64,000 nucleotides of DNA from Nitrosopumilaceae archaeon (lineage in GTDB: Archaea > Thermoproteota > Nitrososphaeria > Nitrososphaerales > Nitrosopumilaceae): NCBI GenBank assembly GCA_028279545.1, contig JANQNN010000047.1, positions 1-64,000 of the forward strand, in the 5' to 3' direction. Made by a program: the position numbers and the translations under genes. Positions within the stretch are counted from its first letter, which is position 1; each line of letters starts with the position of its first letter. This document shows positions 21,875 to 56,101 of the stretch, in pieces. The notes below the pieces were generated by a model. The model was not told where the DNA came from. It searched no databases and saw nothing but the letters and a program-made list of their open reading frames with translations.

Positions 21875-23017
21875 TCAAATACTGATTGGAATTTGGAAAT
21901 TAAAGTTTGCTTCTGTGTTTTGTCTTCGTTTCCAAAATAAATTGTCTTTCCAGCGCTTTTCAATTTCATAAAAATATTTTCTGTTTTTGAGATAAAGTTG
22001 GAAATTACCATAAACTTTTTTTAGATACCTAGTTCCAAGTGTTCCATCATTTTTTAATGCATCATATGCAATCCGTGCAGATTCTATTCCTGAAACTATT
22101 GCATGGCCAATTCCGGTGGATGATAAGGGATCAAATGATGCCACTGCATCTCCAGCAGGAATCCAGTTTGAGCCATCGGTTTTTTGAATTATTTGAGAAT
22201 ATGCAGGAAAAATTATCGGTTTTTCTAATAATTTAGAATTCTCTATGGTTTTTTTAATATGTAGAGTTTTTTTTAAAGAAGTTTTCCAGTTTTCTAAGTT
22301 TTGCAATTCTATTTCCTTGGCAATGTCACTATCAGTCATAAAGACCACAACCCTCCTATTTTGGGGAATTAAACTAGAATACCACCAACCATTTGGATTT
22401 GATTCTAGAAGAGTATAGGATTGTTCCTCATCAACATCTTTTATTTCATAAACAGATGCGATTCCTACTAAATTATCTAAGATGTTCCATTTTGCACCAA
22501 GGTTTCGTGCAAAAACGGCATTTTTTCCACTTGCATCAATTACATAATCTGAATTTACACGAATGATATTTTCATTCTCTTGTTTTGCAAAAAGGGTCCA
22601 TTTATTTTTCAATTTTTGTTGTTTTACAACCTTGGCAGAAGTAAAAATAATTCCATTTCTTTTTTTTACTTCATTTGCTAGCATTCTATCAAATTTTTTT
22701 CTATTAAGGTTCCAACCATTTCCTTGACCCGTAGGAAAGAAATCACGAGAGCGCAATTGGGTGCTTCCCCAAGAAGTGTCAATTCCATGGGAAGCTATTT
22801 GCATATCTGGGGAAAATTCGTCATCAACTTTGAGATATCTTAGCAAAGAAGGAAAGTTTGGCGATACTGATTCACCAATTCTAAATTTATCATAATTGGT
22901 TGATTCAAATATTCCTACCTTGAGCGAAGTTTGATTTAAAAGAGTTAATGCAGCGGCGCACCCTGCAGGACCTCCGCCAATTATAGATACATCAAGATCT
23001 AAGGAATTATTCACCAT
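21875..23017 (-). CDS. LodB-like FAD-dependent oxidoreductase (CTQ maturase)
   Basis: 380-residue flavoprotein of the halogenase/geranylgeranyl-reductase group. The dinucleotide motif VSIIGGGPAGCAAA is at residues 10-23, the conserved RIGESVSPN at about 47-55 and the second FAD motif PAGDAVASFDPLSSTGIGHAI near 288-307. It directly follows, and overlaps by 11 bases, a LodA/GoxA-type oxidase gene. In characterised bacteria the LodB/GoxB flavoprotein is required to make the cysteine-tryptophylquinone cofactor of that partner. Sequence plus context therefore support a LodB role. Confidence 0.82.
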   Translation of the reverse strand: MVNNSLDLDVSIIGGGPAGCAAALTLLNQTSLKVGIFESTNYDKFRIGESVSPNFPSLLRYLKVDDEFSPDMQIASHGIDTSWGSTQLRSRDFFPTGQGNGWNLNRKKFDRMLANEVKKRNGIIFTSAKVVKQQKLKNKWTLFAKQENENIIRVNSDYVIDASGKNAVFARNLGAKWNILDNLVGIASVYEIKDVDEEQSYTLLESNPNGWWYSSLIPQNRRVVVFMTDSDIAKEIELQNLENWKTSLKKTLHIKKTIENSKLLEKPIIFPAYSQIIQKTDGSNWIPAGDAVASFDPLSSTGIGHAIVSGIESARIAYDALKNDGTLGTRYLKKVYGNFQLYLKNRKYFYEIEKRWKDNLFWKRRQNTEANFNFQIPISI

Positions 23018-25103
23018 CTTTACTGTATTGAATAAGATCCTTCTTCAGATGGTATCCATGTTCAAATCTAACGCCAAATGGATCCACAATATTTCTTTTA
23101 TTTGCAACCGATACTGCTGAGACTTCAAATTCTTCATGGTTTCGTTCCTTTTCTACAAAATATGGATAGTCTTCTCTGTTTTCATCTTCGTTTTGATTTA
23201 CAATAAATCCGAGGTAACTCCAAGCATAAACCATTTCAATATGATTATGAACTCCTCTAATGAAATTAACTTGCTGACCAGCTGAAGCACCAGATGCTTC
23301 TATCTCAGTTTTTGCTTTTTCTTTTTTATTCTCTATATCAGTTATTTCAGAATCCGTTACACCAAGAATTACATCCCATGGAGCTTGTGGAGGCCACCAA
23401 TATGCAAGATAGGTTGGTGGTTCTTCAAGTTGATGTCCGGCGGTTAGAGCTCTATCCGCATCTGTAAAATTAATGTGGTTAACATTGCATTCAAAAAGAT
23501 CAGATACCCATGGATCTGCCATTCGTTTAGTCAAGTCTCCAGGTTCGCATCCACCTCCAATTTTGCCTATAGGAGCTGTTTCATCCCAATTGTAAGAAAG
23601 CCCATGTTCAAAATAAAAATTAGAATCAAACTTTCCCTCTTGATTTTTATTTCTATGTTTTATTTTATAAGGGTCTTCAAATATTGAAGGGTTTTTTATA
23701 TTCCAGGTGACTTCAATTCCAGGACATAAAGGAGCACCTGCACAGTTTCCTAAATCGGCATGGTCTAACTCTGAAAGTCCCAAAATGTCCTCTGGCTCCT
23801 CAGTCGTAAACTTTCCTTCCGACCACTGTTTTAAAAAATAGTATTGAGTCCTTGAAAGCTCAACAAATTTATCCACAATTCTATTGCTAACCGAATTGGA
23901 TCCTGCATTTAACGGCATTAAAGGGATTCCATTAAGATAATCATCCTTGTTGGAAAATAATTGATTTGACTGACCTCCTATACCCCAATAATTTTCACCT
24001 GATTTTCTAAAATAATTAAAATAGGTTTGACGGTTGGTAAGATTTTCTGGCGAATTATCTTGTAAATCGAAATGGGGAATACAAAAATCCATCATGGAGG
24101 GAACATTGGCAACCCATCGATAACATCCAATACTTTTGATGATGGGTTCTATATCTCGTTTAAAATTTACTATGTAGTCTGGGTTCCATCCATTTTTTTT
24201 AGTGTAAATATCTGGGGCTGCTTCCAAATGATATATTGCGACATCGCGCATTGTATCATCAAGAGTTGTAATGTTTACAAGCTCTGGGGCAAATTTTGGC
24301 GGGCCAACAATTACCCAAGCATCAAGTACAATTTTTGAATCATCAGCTAATGTAATCTCACAAATTACAGGCCCATCTGAAATATCATCATACCAAGTTT
24401 CACCTCCCGCAAAGGTAGCAAAAAGTTCATCACCTCCTGAGTTTCCATGACCACCCAAAACAACAAGGTTTTTCTTTGAATCACAAATAACTTCGCCCAG
24501 ATAATTCACCCGTTTTCCATAAAGGGGTTTACCCTTGTTTTTGGTAGAGTACTTAGGTTCAGATATTTTATAATCTCCTTTTTGGTCATTGTTCATAAAT
24601 TTTAATCTCATCTTTGGAGAATTTACTGTACGAGGACCAAAATCTACTATGAGTTTGTTTCTGTCATCTCCTTTAATTTCTTTATTTCGCCATTCTGCAT
24701 CTTCATCTTTTCTTCCTTCATAGGTATTATCTTCACCCAACATTAAATCTCCTTTAAATTCTGAAAAATGAAACCATGCAGCTTTTTTGTTAGCCAAATG
24801 GACAGTCCACTTTACGTTTTTTATTTGCGAGGTATCTGAGAGATCAATTTCTTCAGGGGAGGTTTTAGATGAATCGTGTTTAAAAATTCTAAATTTCGCT
24901 GCTTGTTTTTTTACTCTTTTTTGTTTGTCTTTGAATTTTTTTACATATCTGAATTTTCCATTCTCGGCGTCAAAGCATTCATCACCAAATTCTGTACATT
25001 CGATTGGTCTACCACCAATTTTTATCGGGGATAGATAAAAATCTCCACTATTTCCAAGACGTGCTACTCCTATAGGCGGATGAATTTTATATTCTACGCC
25101 CAT
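23007..25103 (-). CDS. LodA/GoxA-like CTQ-dependent amine/amino-acid oxidase
   Basis: 698 residues, close to the length of characterised L-lysine 6-oxidase (LodA) and glycine oxidase (GoxA). The N-terminus EYKIHPPIGVARLGNS matches the family start. MADPWVSDLFEC places D535 and C539 in the spacing of the LodA Asp-x3-Cys pair that flanks the cofactor, and YWWPPQAPWDV supplies the tryptophan (W570, followed by Pro). These enzymes oxidatively deaminate an amino group, giving ammonia and hydrogen peroxide. There is no signal peptide, so the protein is cytoplasmic unless exported unconventionally. The substrate cannot be told. Confidence 0.87.
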   Translation of the reverse strand: MGVEYKIHPPIGVARLGNSGDFYLSPIKIGGRPIECTEFGDECFDAENGKFRYVKKFKDKQKRVKKQAAKFRIFKHDSSKTSPEEIDLSDTSQIKNVKWTVHLANKKAAWFHFSEFKGDLMLGEDNTYEGRKDEDAEWRNKEIKGDDRNKLIVDFGPRTVNSPKMRLKFMNNDQKGDYKISEPKYSTKNKGKPLYGKRVNYLGEVICDSKKNLVVLGGHGNSGGDELFATFAGGETWYDDISDGPVICEITLADDSKIVLDAWVIVGPPKFAPELVNITTLDDTMRDVAIYHLEAAPDIYTKKNGWNPDYIVNFKRDIEPIIKSIGCYRWVANVPSMMDFCIPHFDLQDNSPENLTNRQTYFNYFRKSGENYWGIGGQSNQLFSNKDDYLNGIPLMPLNAGSNSVSNRIVDKFVELSRTQYYFLKQWSEGKFTTEEPEDILGLSELDHADLGNCAGAPLCPGIEVTWNIKNPSIFEDPYKIKHRNKNQEGKFDSNFYFEHGLSYNWDETAPIGKIGGGCEPGDLTKRMADPWVSDLFECNVNHINFTDADRALTAGHQLEEPPTYLAYWWPPQAPWDVILGVTDSEITDIENKKEKAKTEIEASGASAGQQVNFIRGVHNHIEMVYAWSYLGFIVNQNEDENREDYPYFVEKERNHEEFEVSAVSVANKRNIVDPFGVRFEHGYHLKKDLIQYSKDGE

Positions 25104-26497
25104 TGTGTTATTCTCACTGCAGGATCCCCAAAAATATGATAGTTTTTTAGTTCGTATCTTCGCATAAATAAACTCCCATACTCTTCAATTCGTGAATCCT
25201 CCACCTTTTTTCCATTCCTTAAATCGTCAATTATTCTCTGCGTTTTTCGAGTAATTTGGTCATTGACAGTATTATAATCTTCTTTAATTTGAGAAAGAGC
25301 ATATCCCACTGGACCTCCTTTTAGAATAGTGTCAAGGGCAAACAAAAAAGGCCTCGTACGTGTAGGACGATCTTCCAATTGAAAATCGCTATCTTCAGAG
25401 ATGGTATATGACAACATTTCATCAAAATGGCCAATAAAGGCAAGTGGGCCTTTAGAATGAAAAATTAATTTTTTTGGAAGAGAAGCTACAAATGAAGTAG
25501 GAGCAATTTGTGGTGCCTGCAAAGTTTCTTTTTTACCAAACAATTTGTAAATCTCACTTGAAGGAGGGGTCCCAAAACTAAAACTTGATTGTTGAAAAAA
25601 CACTCCTCCTTCTAAAAAAGGCTCAGGAAAAACATCATCAGCTCCAAAAATTTGTTTTTCAGCAGGAACATCAGATTCAGGTTGACAACGAATGGAGCCC
25701 CCAAGTTTTTTTTGTAATCCCAAATCTTCCCCTGGAAATGATACTCCACGACTCGAAGTTAAGATTAATCCAGGGATAGAATCATTGATTGAATGGCTTA
25801 GTTTTTCTTTAGTAGCGTCTTCTTCAATCAATTCATTTGTAACTGATGGTAATCCTTTGACGGCTGGAATTAGTGCCTTTTCAACATCAAATCTTTTGAA
25901 ATGGGTTGGATCATAGCATCCAGTAGAGTTGACCCCATGGTCTGTCGCAAAAAAAGTTGTTTCTTTATTTACAAAACCAGAATTATTTTTTTCGATTCGT
26001 ATAACTTTTTCTCCATATTCTTTTATTTGATCAAGATTATCAAAATCAAGTCGTCCCACAAAAGCATATGTGGATAATAAATTTTCAAATTCTAAAGGGA
26101 TGCTTTGTAAATCTCCAATGATTAGAATATATTTACTTGTAGATTGACTTTTAAAATCATCTACTACGTCAAGCCAATGCTCCTCTGGTTCATTGTCAAA
26201 AAATAAGGGCCTTCTAAAATCCTGTTTTTCCCGATGTATGGCCAAGGGTCTTATAGCATCAATTATTTCTGTAGAATCTTTATTGATAAGAAATGTCCAA
26301 CCCGCCTGTTCAGGAATTGCAGGGTTATAACCCACTTGCGGTGCATCACCTGCTTTACCCATCCCCCTTTTTCTAGATTCAGGTTCTTGGATTTTTTCTT
26401 TTAATCCTTGGATTATTTTTTTTCTAAAATCATCAGAGTTTATTGGATTAAAAGAAATCTTGTCGGTTAGAGTCTGTCCTTGAGAGGAAATCTTCAA
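25094..26497 (-). CDS. Gingipain/CHAT-like (caspase-fold) protein, apparently without catalytic dyad
   Basis: 467 residues. KYILIIGDLQSIPLEF (about 120-135) and YAFVGRLDFDN (about 141-152) match the GD-xx-IP and GRL patterns of peptidase C25. KGPLAFIGHFDEMLSYT and the C-terminal IFGDPAVRI match the late strand and 'GDP-x-hR' ending seen in C25 and CHAT proteins. The position expected to hold catalytic His-Gly reads TSSRGVSFPG, and the expected Cys region reads FFQQSSFSFG, so the dyad seems lost. No signal peptide. It is first gene of the operon, overlapping the LodA-like gene by 10 bases. Confidence 0.6.
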   Translation of the reverse strand: MKISSQGQTLTDKISFNPINSDDFRKKIIQGLKEKIQEPESRKRGMGKAGDAPQVGYNPAIPEQAGWTFLINKDSTEIIDAIRPLAIHREKQDFRRPLFFDNEPEEHWLDVVDDFKSQSTSKYILIIGDLQSIPLEFENLLSTYAFVGRLDFDNLDQIKEYGEKVIRIEKNNSGFVNKETTFFATDHGVNSTGCYDPTHFKRFDVEKALIPAVKGLPSVTNELIEEDATKEKLSHSINDSIPGLILTSSRGVSFPGEDLGLQKKLGGSIRCQPESDVPAEKQIFGADDVFPEPFLEGGVFFQQSSFSFGTPPSSEIYKLFGKKETLQAPQIAPTSFVASLPKKLIFHSKGPLAFIGHFDEMLSYTISEDSDFQLEDRPTRTRPFLFALDTILKGGPVGYALSQIKEDYNTVNDQITRKTQRIIDDLRNGKKVEDSRIEEYGSLFMRRYELKNYHIFGDPAVRITQWA

Positions 26498-26652: not shown

Positions 26653-27489
26653 ATGTCGGGGGAGATAGAAAAAGAGATCAAGCCTGGGAGGGGTCTTAAT
26701 TATTATGTTCTAGGCGCTATTTTGATTGGACTGCTAATTTTCTTTATAGGAAATTCCATTACGCCTGATGATGAGGAGACCCTTGATGAATATGAGTTCA
26801 CTACATCGGTTGGTTGGGCAGCTGCTTGTATTTTCTCGTTTATTGTTGCAAAAAGATACTGGGGTTCTGAAATTTTTGGAAAGGCGTATCTTGCTCTTGC
26901 TATAGGCTTTCTTTTTTATAATATTGGGTGGAATCTTTGGTGGTTTTATGAAATTTGGTATCACATAGAAAATCCTTTTGTTGCCCTCCCCGATGTTTTT
27001 TTCATTGCATTTTATCCATTAGCAATTTATCATATCCGAAAAAATTATAATCATTTTAAACCGTCAGTTTCAAAAAATCAAAAAATCATAATAATTATTA
27101 TTCCTATAATTTGCTGTTCTGTCTATGCTTTCTTTGGTTCGTTCCAAATTAGTGCTGTTGGTGGTTTTTCAAATATTCAAACCTCACCTATAGTATTCAC
27201 CGAAATAGTAGAAATAGCTGGATTTTATTTAGGCTTGGTATTTGTATTTTTATCAGCATTAACTTTTTCTTCTGCTATTGTTGCTGTACAAATATTTCGT
27301 AATACTGTTCTGGGTACTGCATGGGGACTTTTACTTCTGGGTATTTTATTAAATGCAAGTGCAGATATTTACTATTACATAAATGAGAATTTTGGAGGTT
27401 ATGTTCGTTCTGAACCTTATACAGCAATTTGGCTTGCAGGTGCTGTTTTCATTTGTTATGGATTGTATTTACATCGAAAAGAAATTTAA
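26653..27489 (+). CDS. Polytopic membrane protein, unknown function
   Basis: 278 residues with about eight hydrophobic segments and very short loops. Conserved-looking membrane motifs include YNIGWNLWWFYEIWYHIENPF near residue 88 and LLGILLNASADIYYYINENFGGY near 236. The pattern resembles the membrane sensor modules that precede histidine kinases in archaea, but no kinase or other soluble domain is attached. It is divergent from the oxidase operon and shares a 10-bp promoter motif with it. A sensor or transporter role is inference. Confidence 0.75.
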   Translation: MSGEIEKEIKPGRGLNYYVLGAILIGLLIFFIGNSITPDDEETLDEYEFTTSVGWAAACIFSFIVAKRYWGSEIFGKAYLALAIGFLFYNIGWNLWWFYEIWYHIENPFVALPDVFFIAFYPLAIYHIRKNYNHFKPSVSKNQKIIIIIIPIICCSVYAFFGSFQISAVGGFSNIQTSPIVFTEIVEIAGFYLGLVFVFLSALTFSSAIVAVQIFRNTVLGTAWGLLLLGILLNASADIYYYINENFGGYVRSEPYTAIWLAGAVFICYGLYLHRKEI

Positions 27490-54007: not shown

Positions 54008-56101
54008 ATGCGTTTAAGAAAATTCAGAGTTAGAGCTTATAGGTGTATTCACGACTCAGGTGAAATAACAGTAGGGGATTTGGCTGCTTTTGTAGGAAGA
54101 AATGAAAGTGGAAAAACAACAATCTTACAAGCACTTACCATGCTAAACAAAGATGAAACATTATCAGCATTAGATCTTTGTGATGAAATGGCAGAAGATT
54201 TGAAAAAAGAGATTAGATTAGTTGAAGGCGAATTTGAATTAAACACAAGTGAATCAAACATGATCAAAGAAAAATTTCTAGATTTACCCCCTATTAAAAA
54301 AATTAAATTATTTAGAACAAACAAAAAACCAGAAGTTCAATATGAGTTTGAAAATATAAAAATTAGTGAGAGTACAGATAGAGAAATTAATTCATGGGAA
54401 AACTTTTCCAAAAGGATTCTTGAATTTTTGGATACTATTCCCAATCATCTTAGAATTCAAATAAACACAAAGTTCTTTGAAGATCCTCCACCTGTTAATC
54501 AATCTAAATTTGATTCCGCTTTGGCAGAGTTTAACAACCAATTTCATGTTATTGCGATGCAAGATCCAAAGGTTATTGAAGAATGGGAGAAAATTTACTC
54601 CAAACCAGAAAATCAATTTTCAAATTTACTCTCCGGAGGAAATGAAAAAAGTGCGTTAGAGAACTTTATTGCAAATCAATTGCATCCAAGGTTTGTTTAC
54701 TTTTCTGATTATAAAAAAATCTATGGAAATATTAACTTAAATGAGTACATAAGAGAAGAAAAAGGAGAACGACGGGAATCAATAGAATATATCGAAGATT
54801 TTGATAAGGCTGAAAGTGTAAGGAATCTTTTCTATTTAGCAGAATTAAACATTAATGAGTTAGAAGAGGTAAAAAATAGCCCCTCAAGGTGCATTAAACT
54901 TCTAAATGCTGCAAGCAACAGATTAACCAGGAAATTAAATCCTGCATGGAAAGGTGATCCAATACATGTGGAATTAAGATATAATCCTGGAAATATTATG
55001 AGTGTTGTAATTTCTGATGTACATAGGGATGGAACTGTTACAAATACGGGTTTGTTAAATAGAAGGGCTGAAGGTTTTAAATGGACTTTTTCTTTTATTG
55101 TAAATTTTGCAGCAGAAACTCAAAGAGCAGAACTAAAAGAGGCAATACTCTTACTTGATGAACCAGCAAGAAATCTCCATCCCACCCAACAAATGGGAAT
55201 TTCTGATCTTTTAAAAAATTTAGCCGGCTCCAATCAAGTACTTTATGCAACACATTCACCGTTTATGATTTTTGATTATACCCCTGGAAACCTGTTAGTT
55301 GTAGAATTAGATAAAAGAAAACATCTTAGTAGAATTTTTTATGATTACTGGAATGCTGATGATAAAACCCTCACACCAATCCTTTATGGGTTATCCAGAG
55401 GTCTTGTTGAATCGATTGTAGATAGAGAAATTGGTAGAAACTCTAGACCTGTAATTATAGTAGAGACAATGTCAGATTCGATGTATTTGAATTCTTTTGA
55501 TAAGTTCTTACAGGATCCAAATATTTCAATGAATCCCCTAAACGTTGTTGCTGCATTCAATAAAAATGCTGTATTACCATTGGCAATTTTCTATAGAAAC
55601 CATGGTTACAACACATTCATTTTACTTGACAATACAGAAGAATCAAAACAAATTTCTTCACAGCTGACTTCAAATGATTTTAATCCGATTCAAACTATAT
55701 TTTTTGAAAAGGATGGAAAAACAATTGAATCTATTGAAGATTATGTTGTTCTTGAGGATTACCTTTATGCCGTAAACCAAACATATGAAATTAAACTTCG
55801 CAATGAAGGATACTCAAGTCTTACACCTGAAGAAGTAATGTCCAAAAAGAAAAAAGGTGTTTTAGAGAATTTAAAAACGATTTGGGATGAACATCAAGAC
55901 GATGATTGGGGTGAATTTGAAAATGAGGACATTACCAGATACATTTGTGAGAAAATTGCATTAGGGGAAACCGATTTCCTCTCCGATAAAACCAAGGATC
56001 AAATTCGTTCACTATATCGCTTAATAGCTGAAAGAATTAGACAATATCAAAATGCAGCCGTAAAGACCGAATTTGATAAGTTACAAAAGCCTCAAAAATG
56101 A
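54008..56101 (+). CDS. OLD-family AAA ATPase with TOPRIM-like domain
   Basis: 697 residues. FVGRNESGKTTILQAL (Walker A, residues 30-37), a long coiled/helical insertion, and AILLLDEPARNLHPTQQMGISDLLKNLAGSNQVLYATHSPFMI (signature, Walker B and H-loop, about 377-420). The C-terminal region starts with VIIVETMSDSMYL, with the TOPRIM glutamate, and FILLDNTEES occupies the D-x-D position as D-N-T. The architecture is that of OLD nucleases (class 1 or GajA-like). No partner gene such as a UvrD-like helicase is adjacent. Confidence 0.82.
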   Translation: MRLRKFRVRAYRCIHDSGEITVGDLAAFVGRNESGKTTILQALTMLNKDETLSALDLCDEMAEDLKKEIRLVEGEFELNTSESNMIKEKFLDLPPIKKIKLFRTNKKPEVQYEFENIKISESTDREINSWENFSKRILEFLDTIPNHLRIQINTKFFEDPPPVNQSKFDSALAEFNNQFHVIAMQDPKVIEEWEKIYSKPENQFSNLLSGGNEKSALENFIANQLHPRFVYFSDYKKIYGNINLNEYIREEKGERRESIEYIEDFDKAESVRNLFYLAELNINELEEVKNSPSRCIKLLNAASNRLTRKLNPAWKGDPIHVELRYNPGNIMSVVISDVHRDGTVTNTGLLNRRAEGFKWTFSFIVNFAAETQRAELKEAILLLDEPARNLHPTQQMGISDLLKNLAGSNQVLYATHSPFMIFDYTPGNLLVVELDKRKHLSRIFYDYWNADDKTLTPILYGLSRGLVESIVDREIGRNSRPVIIVETMSDSMYLNSFDKFLQDPNISMNPLNVVAAFNKNAVLPLAIFYRNHGYNTFILLDNTEESKQISSQLTSNDFNPIQTIFFEKDGKTIESIEDYVVLEDYLYAVNQTYEIKLRNEGYSSLTPEEVMSKKKKGVLENLKTIWDEHQDDDWGEFENEDITRYICEKIALGETDFLSDKTKDQIRSLYRLIAERIRQYQNAAVKTEFDKLQKPQK

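Follow-up and report, generated by a model that had tools for sequence, protein, structure and literature searches.

Oxidases of the LodA family carry cysteine tryptophylquinone (CTQ), and in the characterised bacterial enzymes formation of this cofactor is assisted by the flavoprotein LodB, after which amines are oxidised with production of ammonia and hydrogen peroxide (PMC4417212; PMC4699246; PMC7876137). The L-lysine epsilon-oxidase of Marinomonas mediterranea (LodA; PDB 3weu, 2ymw) belongs to group IA, whose members are antimicrobial L-amino acid oxidases (PMC4417212), and the glycine oxidase pair GoxA/GoxB represents the same superfamily with the same cofactor chemistry. Another CTQ enzyme, quinohemoprotein amine dehydrogenase (QhpC), is encoded in an operon with a flavoprotein maturase (QhpG) and a dedicated protease, QhpE (PMC7876137). 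A 2015 survey of 602 archaeal genomes found no member of the LodA family (PMC4417212), and no later report of an archaeal LodA was found in the open-licence literature.

Here, we describe a lodA-lodB pair from an archaeon of the family Nitrosopumilaceae (assembly GCA_028279545.1), located on a stretch of 64,000 nucleotides (contig JANQNN010000047.1, positions 1 to 64,000), which is referred to below as the window. An earlier note on this DNA had claimed a unit of three overlapping genes in an ammonia oxidiser, and all three open reading frames were indeed confirmed at the claimed positions (Table 1). The novelty lies in the host domain, for which an authentic LodA protein had not been reported, and in the pseudo-protease that accompanies it. 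The known range of CTQ oxidases thus widens to take in a third domain of life and, within it, ammonia-dependent organisms, which are frequently catalase-negative.

Table 1. Positions of the genes, gene overlaps and cofactor residues in the window, and of two related loci in other archaeal genomes.
Feature	Position	Strand	Remarks
pseudo-C25, Clan-CD/C25-like pseudo-protease	25094..26497	-	467 aa, TTG start
lodA, LodA-type CTQ amine/amino-acid oxidase	23007..25103	-	698 aa
lodB, LodB-type FAD-dependent maturase	21875..23017	-	380 aa
Overlap pseudo-C25/lodA	25094..25103	-	10 bases, ATGGGCGTAG, read off the sequence
Overlap lodA/lodB	23007..23017	-	11 bases, ATGGTGAATAA, read off the sequence
D535-x3-C539, Asp and Cys of the CTQ cofactor	23487..23501	-	LodA D512, C516
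W570, tryptophan of the CTQ cofactor	23394..23396	-	LodA W581
Divergent membrane-protein gene, family unassigned	26653..27489	+	278 aa; operon membership uncertain
Second archaeal LodA-family locus	L163 4910-9843 (G829)		1271-aa protein and LodB-like gene
Tandem C25-like genes ahead of lodA	L010 10462-13648 (G001)		copy 1 with intact dyad, copy 2 dead

A LodA-LodB pair in an ammonia-oxidising archaeon

The genes are read on the minus strand in the order pseudo-C25, lodA, lodB, and both overlaps have exactly the lengths that had been claimed. A genome from another genus of the family (G809; contig L162) contains the same C25-lodA junction, identical in the ten-base overlap (L162 292-301), together with a TTG start and a divergent membrane-protein gene upstream, as in the window; this conservation indicates that the arrangement is not due to chance. 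In that genome, the C25-like homologue begins with TTG followed by the peptide MKIS, which supports the TTG start assigned in the window. The membrane-protein gene, for which a Pfam search gave no match, also adjoins the operon in a further genome (G001), with its orientation flipped. Scans for sigma-70 promoters and terminators, using models unsuited to archaea, gave chance-level hits only.

Profile and structure comparisons place the oxidase firmly within its family. The protein scored 706.4 bits against the LodA equivalog model NF038172 (cut-off 600) and only 165 bits against the GoxA model NF038173 (cut-off 750), and the domains LodA_N (PF17990) and LodA_C (PF18417) were matched at 193.5 and 140.4 bits, with cut-offs of 26.3 and 25, respectively. 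Searches with phmmer recovered the sequences of both distinct LodA chains from Marinomonas, with E values of about 1e-145 (7e-146 for 2ymw). An AlphaFold model, built with an alignment of 22 sequences as input, reached a pTM of 0.81, and a Foldseek search with this model returned the six solved LodA chains first, with 3weu, 3wev and 2ymw on top at a TM score of about 0.77 (E 3.6e-57 to 3weu_A). The 698-residue protein is thus a true member of the LodA family and does not fall outside it in profile searches, the outcome that the earlier note had named as fatal to its proposal. The CTQ residues claimed there align with those of Marinomonas LodA, and Asp, Cys and Trp are invariant in all 84 aligned family sequences that cover these columns; in the model, the cofactor loop formed by residues 537-565, which includes C539, has a pLDDT below 50.

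The best NCBIfam match of the flavoprotein is the LodB model NF038171, at 346.5 bits. This score lies below the model's own equivalog cut-off of 400, which counts against the explanation preferred below. On the other hand, the flavin motif GGGPAG, which had been claimed for this protein, is present, and the FAD motifs are conserved across 70 LodB proteins. In the LodB tree, the window sequence stands beside group IA LodB, in a clade matching that of lodA (support 99); motif, tree position and best-scoring model hence agree on the proposed identity. That the host is an ammonia oxidiser is borne out by an Archaeal_AmoA match (PF12942) of 386 bits in its genome. A second, weak match to this model (33.5 bits) was seen outside the window, in a 238-aa frame on contig C16 of the same assembly (G000; 116460-116579).

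The archaeal locus therefore resembles Marinomonas LodA/LodB in the domains, the fold and the Cys, Trp and Asp of CTQ, as well as in the adjoining downstream LodB flavoprotein of the same clade; it differs in its archaeal host and in the extra upstream pseudo-C25 gene. Differences also extend to the substrate pocket. Among the residues invariant in bacterial group IA (15 sequences, all agreeing at Y211 and K530), 158 of 211 are kept in archaeal LodA. Those changed both in the window and in the copy of a genome from the same genus (G006) include Y211F, K530A and Y577L, for which the window counterparts are F231, A555 and L566; the K530 column sits in a poorly aligned stretch. GoxA likewise carries Phe at the Y211 position, which we take to be F316 of that enzyme, consistent with the titles of mutant entries in the PDB; unlike GoxA, however, window LodA retains Cys, rather than His, at the position of LodA C448. 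Because Y211 and K530 are both replaced, lysine should not be assumed as the substrate, and substrate and rate could differ from those of bacterial group IA.

Distribution and origin of the genes

LodA-family genes were detected in five of 250 Nitrosopumilaceae genomes, and the LodA_C domain in only two of 398 genomes in a phylum-wide sample. The lodA-lodB pair of G006 is 74-76% identical to that of the window, with shared flanks; taking G006 and G809 together, the copies show 74-77% amino-acid identity, again with shared flanks. In G001, only the first 28 residues of lodA (68% identity) precede the end of the contig. The fifth genome, G829, is a closed, single-contig genome of 2.17 Mb from the same family. 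Its LodA-family protein is GoxA-leaning, retains the CTQ residues and carries a long C-terminal part of unassigned kind; an amoC gene is located at a distance of about 8 kb from its coding sequence.

In a LodA tree of 82 sequences, the window and G006 proteins branch together, and their sister group comprises Cyanobacteria and marine Gammaproteobacteria, with Marinomonas LodA among them; the 17-row clade with group IA has an SH-aLRT support of 100. The lodA and lodB clades match in that the archaeal pair is grouped with marine Gammaproteobacteria and Cyanobacteria in both. At 0.22-0.24, the GC3 of the three genes does not stand out from the rest of the window. This native GC3, combined with the 74-77% identical copies and the flanks shared between two genera, is consistent with a lodAB pair that came from bacteria by transfer and has since resided in archaea for a long time. 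Moreover, the G829 protein is placed elsewhere in the tree, so that two or more separate entries of the LodA family into these archaea are probable. Carriage by viruses or mobile elements was rejected, as viral contigs, scanned twice, yielded no hit.

LodA-family genes of other LodA groups were also observed in Nitrosomonas (L041, L048, L051, L052, L056) and in methanotrophs (L045, L047, L050, L076, L092).

A C25-like gene with a lost catalytic dyad

Among the 250 family genomes, the C25-like gene occurs only in that of the window, G001 and G809, and it directly precedes lodA in all three. It was undetected in G006, a genome that is 98% complete but offers no information on this point, as its contig ends inside lodA, and a search of the whole G829 genome found no such gene. 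The earlier note had held that this third gene is not part of the bacterial pairs. In agreement, none of 79 bacterial lodA loci contains a C25-like open reading frame within flanks of up to 10 kb on each side (some contigs being short), while most have a lodB-like gene nearby. When 15 lodA-bearing bacterial genomes were searched whole, C25-like genes were found only in a Corallococcus, none of them inside the 10-kb flanks of its lodA.

The 467-aa protein barely passes the Peptidase_C25 model (PF01364; 24.3 bits, cut-off 23), which also matches ten of 11 aligned relatives; a single-sequence fold model gave a mean pLDDT of 36. An identity as a CHAT protease was ruled out, as PF12770 gave no match up to an E value of 1. 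Nearly full-length homology links the protein to bacterial proteins annotated as C25 peptidases (gingipain-like, clan CD) in Myxococcota, Cyanobacteria and Sinorhizobium, with which it shares a C-terminal GDPAVRL-like motif. Peptidases of clan CD use a His/Cys catalytic dyad (PMC4357240). In the bacterial relatives, an SHG...ACFG-type dyad is kept, with His and Cys in every one, apart from a single truncated sequence in the alignment that lacks the Cys segment. In contrast, the window protein has R250 (codon 25748-25750) in place of the His and S305 (codon 25583-25585) in place of the Cys, and the corresponding pairs are W/S in G809 and K/D in the second copy of G001, where a copy with intact dyad stands in tandem. 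With both catalytic positions substituted in all three lodA-linked copies, the protein is presumably not a functional protease. Thus, the earlier note is upheld in that the third gene is absent from the bacterial loci searched, and its view of the product as a protease is not supported as stated.

The dead copies nonetheless keep open frames. Estimates of dN/dS for the C25-like gene are 0.29 (window against G809) and 0.35 (window against G001), compared with 0.15 for lodA (window against G006); these values are rough, with dS near or above 1. They indicate that the dead frame is under purifying selection. Self-processed quinone cofactors would thereby gain a partner of a new kind, a catalytically dead protease that is linked to lodA and maintained by selection.

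Unlike the window protein, the bacterial relatives have no lodA beside them and instead adjoin CHAT, nSTAND-WD40, zf-HC2-TPR-CHAT and SAVED-CHAT genes. Such loci (L149, L155, L154, L136, L012), for which PADLOC holds no model, possibly represent an undescribed family of conflict-system proteases.

Possible roles of the three-gene operon

On balance, we consider it probable that the operon combines a lodAB pair of bacterial derivation with a non-catalytic protein of clan CD as binding partner or regulator of the oxidase, and that its function is accessory and based on peroxide. By analogy with the bacterial enzymes, LodB would use its FAD to assist the formation of cysteine tryptophylquinone from W570 and C539 of LodA, and mature LodA would then oxidise a primary amine or amino acid with O2, releasing ammonia and hydrogen peroxide along with an aldehyde or oxo product. 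For the C25-like protein, gained in archaea and probably co-translated, binding to LodA or to the LodA precursor is most likely, and it may act there without catalysis, as scaffold, chaperone or gate; physical contact between the two is suggested by their linkage and overlapping genes. The peroxide might serve the host in competition or in life on surfaces, and the ammonia formed as a by-product could be oxidised by it. Because the distribution is patchy and the nearest bacterial relatives have antimicrobial or biofilm roles, such an accessory function is favoured, with modest confidence, over a general supply of nitrogen. A peroxide producer is nevertheless hard to reconcile with the existence of catalase-negative ammonia-oxidising archaea (PMC10432482).

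The same difficulty faces the less probable view that LodA chiefly frees ammonium from lysine or organic amines for ammonia monooxygenase, with the C25-like protein as a scaffold and peroxide as an unwanted product that would be costly to catalase-negative archaea (PMC10432482). Ammonium release by LodA-type enzymes (PMC4417212), the archaeal amoA of the host and the proximity of the second archaeal LodA-family gene to amoC all speak for this view, as does the presence of LodA-family genes in Nitrosomonas; the Nitrosomonas proteins, however, fall in other LodA groups, and a gene found in so few genomes of the family does not constitute a general nitrogen route. Yet less probable is a peroxide effector for defence or self-harm: LodA would be sensed or held by the dead clan-CD protein, and its release would lead to a burst of peroxide. 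The patchy distribution, the tandem of intact and dead copies in G001 and the neighbours of the bacterial C25-like relatives, which are of a kind known from bacterial conflict systems, would all be in keeping with such gating. The archaeal operon, however, has no adjoining CHAT, NTPase or sensor gene, the dead copy stands alone in two of the three genomes, and no PADLOC model was matched, so that a known defence family was rejected. A broader proposal, to be held only tentatively, is that the three archaeal parts form a system under the control of the caspase-fold protein, which, itself non-catalytic, would let the self-made quinone oxidase release peroxide and ammonia on a trigger only. With equally slight assurance, such an operon would link a clan-CD pseudo-protease to a CTQ enzyme for the first time, and Archaea would have their first LodA system.

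The Qhp operon offers a further parallel, as it too combines a CTQ enzyme, a flavoprotein maturase and a protease-fold protein, and its dedicated protease (PMC7876137) raises the idea that cofactor formation involves cleavage of LodA, or of a leader, by the C25-like protein. The position of the gene and its overlap with lodA would suit such a role. The two operons differ, however, in that the oxidase folds are unrelated and QhpE is an active enzyme of the subtilisin type. The bacterial lodAB loci searched lack such a gene, and window LodA begins directly at the LodA domain, without a leader; an active maturation protease was rejected on account of the dyad lost at both positions in the three lodA-linked copies, and we regard this role as very improbable. 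Least credible of all is assembly contamination or a functionless, decaying import, which might be suspected from an otherwise bacterial LodA phylogeny and a host genome in 57 contigs. Contamination is refuted by the native GC3 and by the junctions and flanks common to independent archaeal genomes of two genera; intact frames and dN/dS values well below 1 argue against decay, and the closed chromosome of G829 carries another member of the family.

In the preferred reading, the locus raises the question of how hosts with a peroxide-making, ammonia-releasing enzyme use organic nitrogen and maintain their oxidative balance. Elsewhere in the window, positions 54008-56101 encode a 697-aa protein that by eye resembles an OLD-type AAA ATPase/nuclease.
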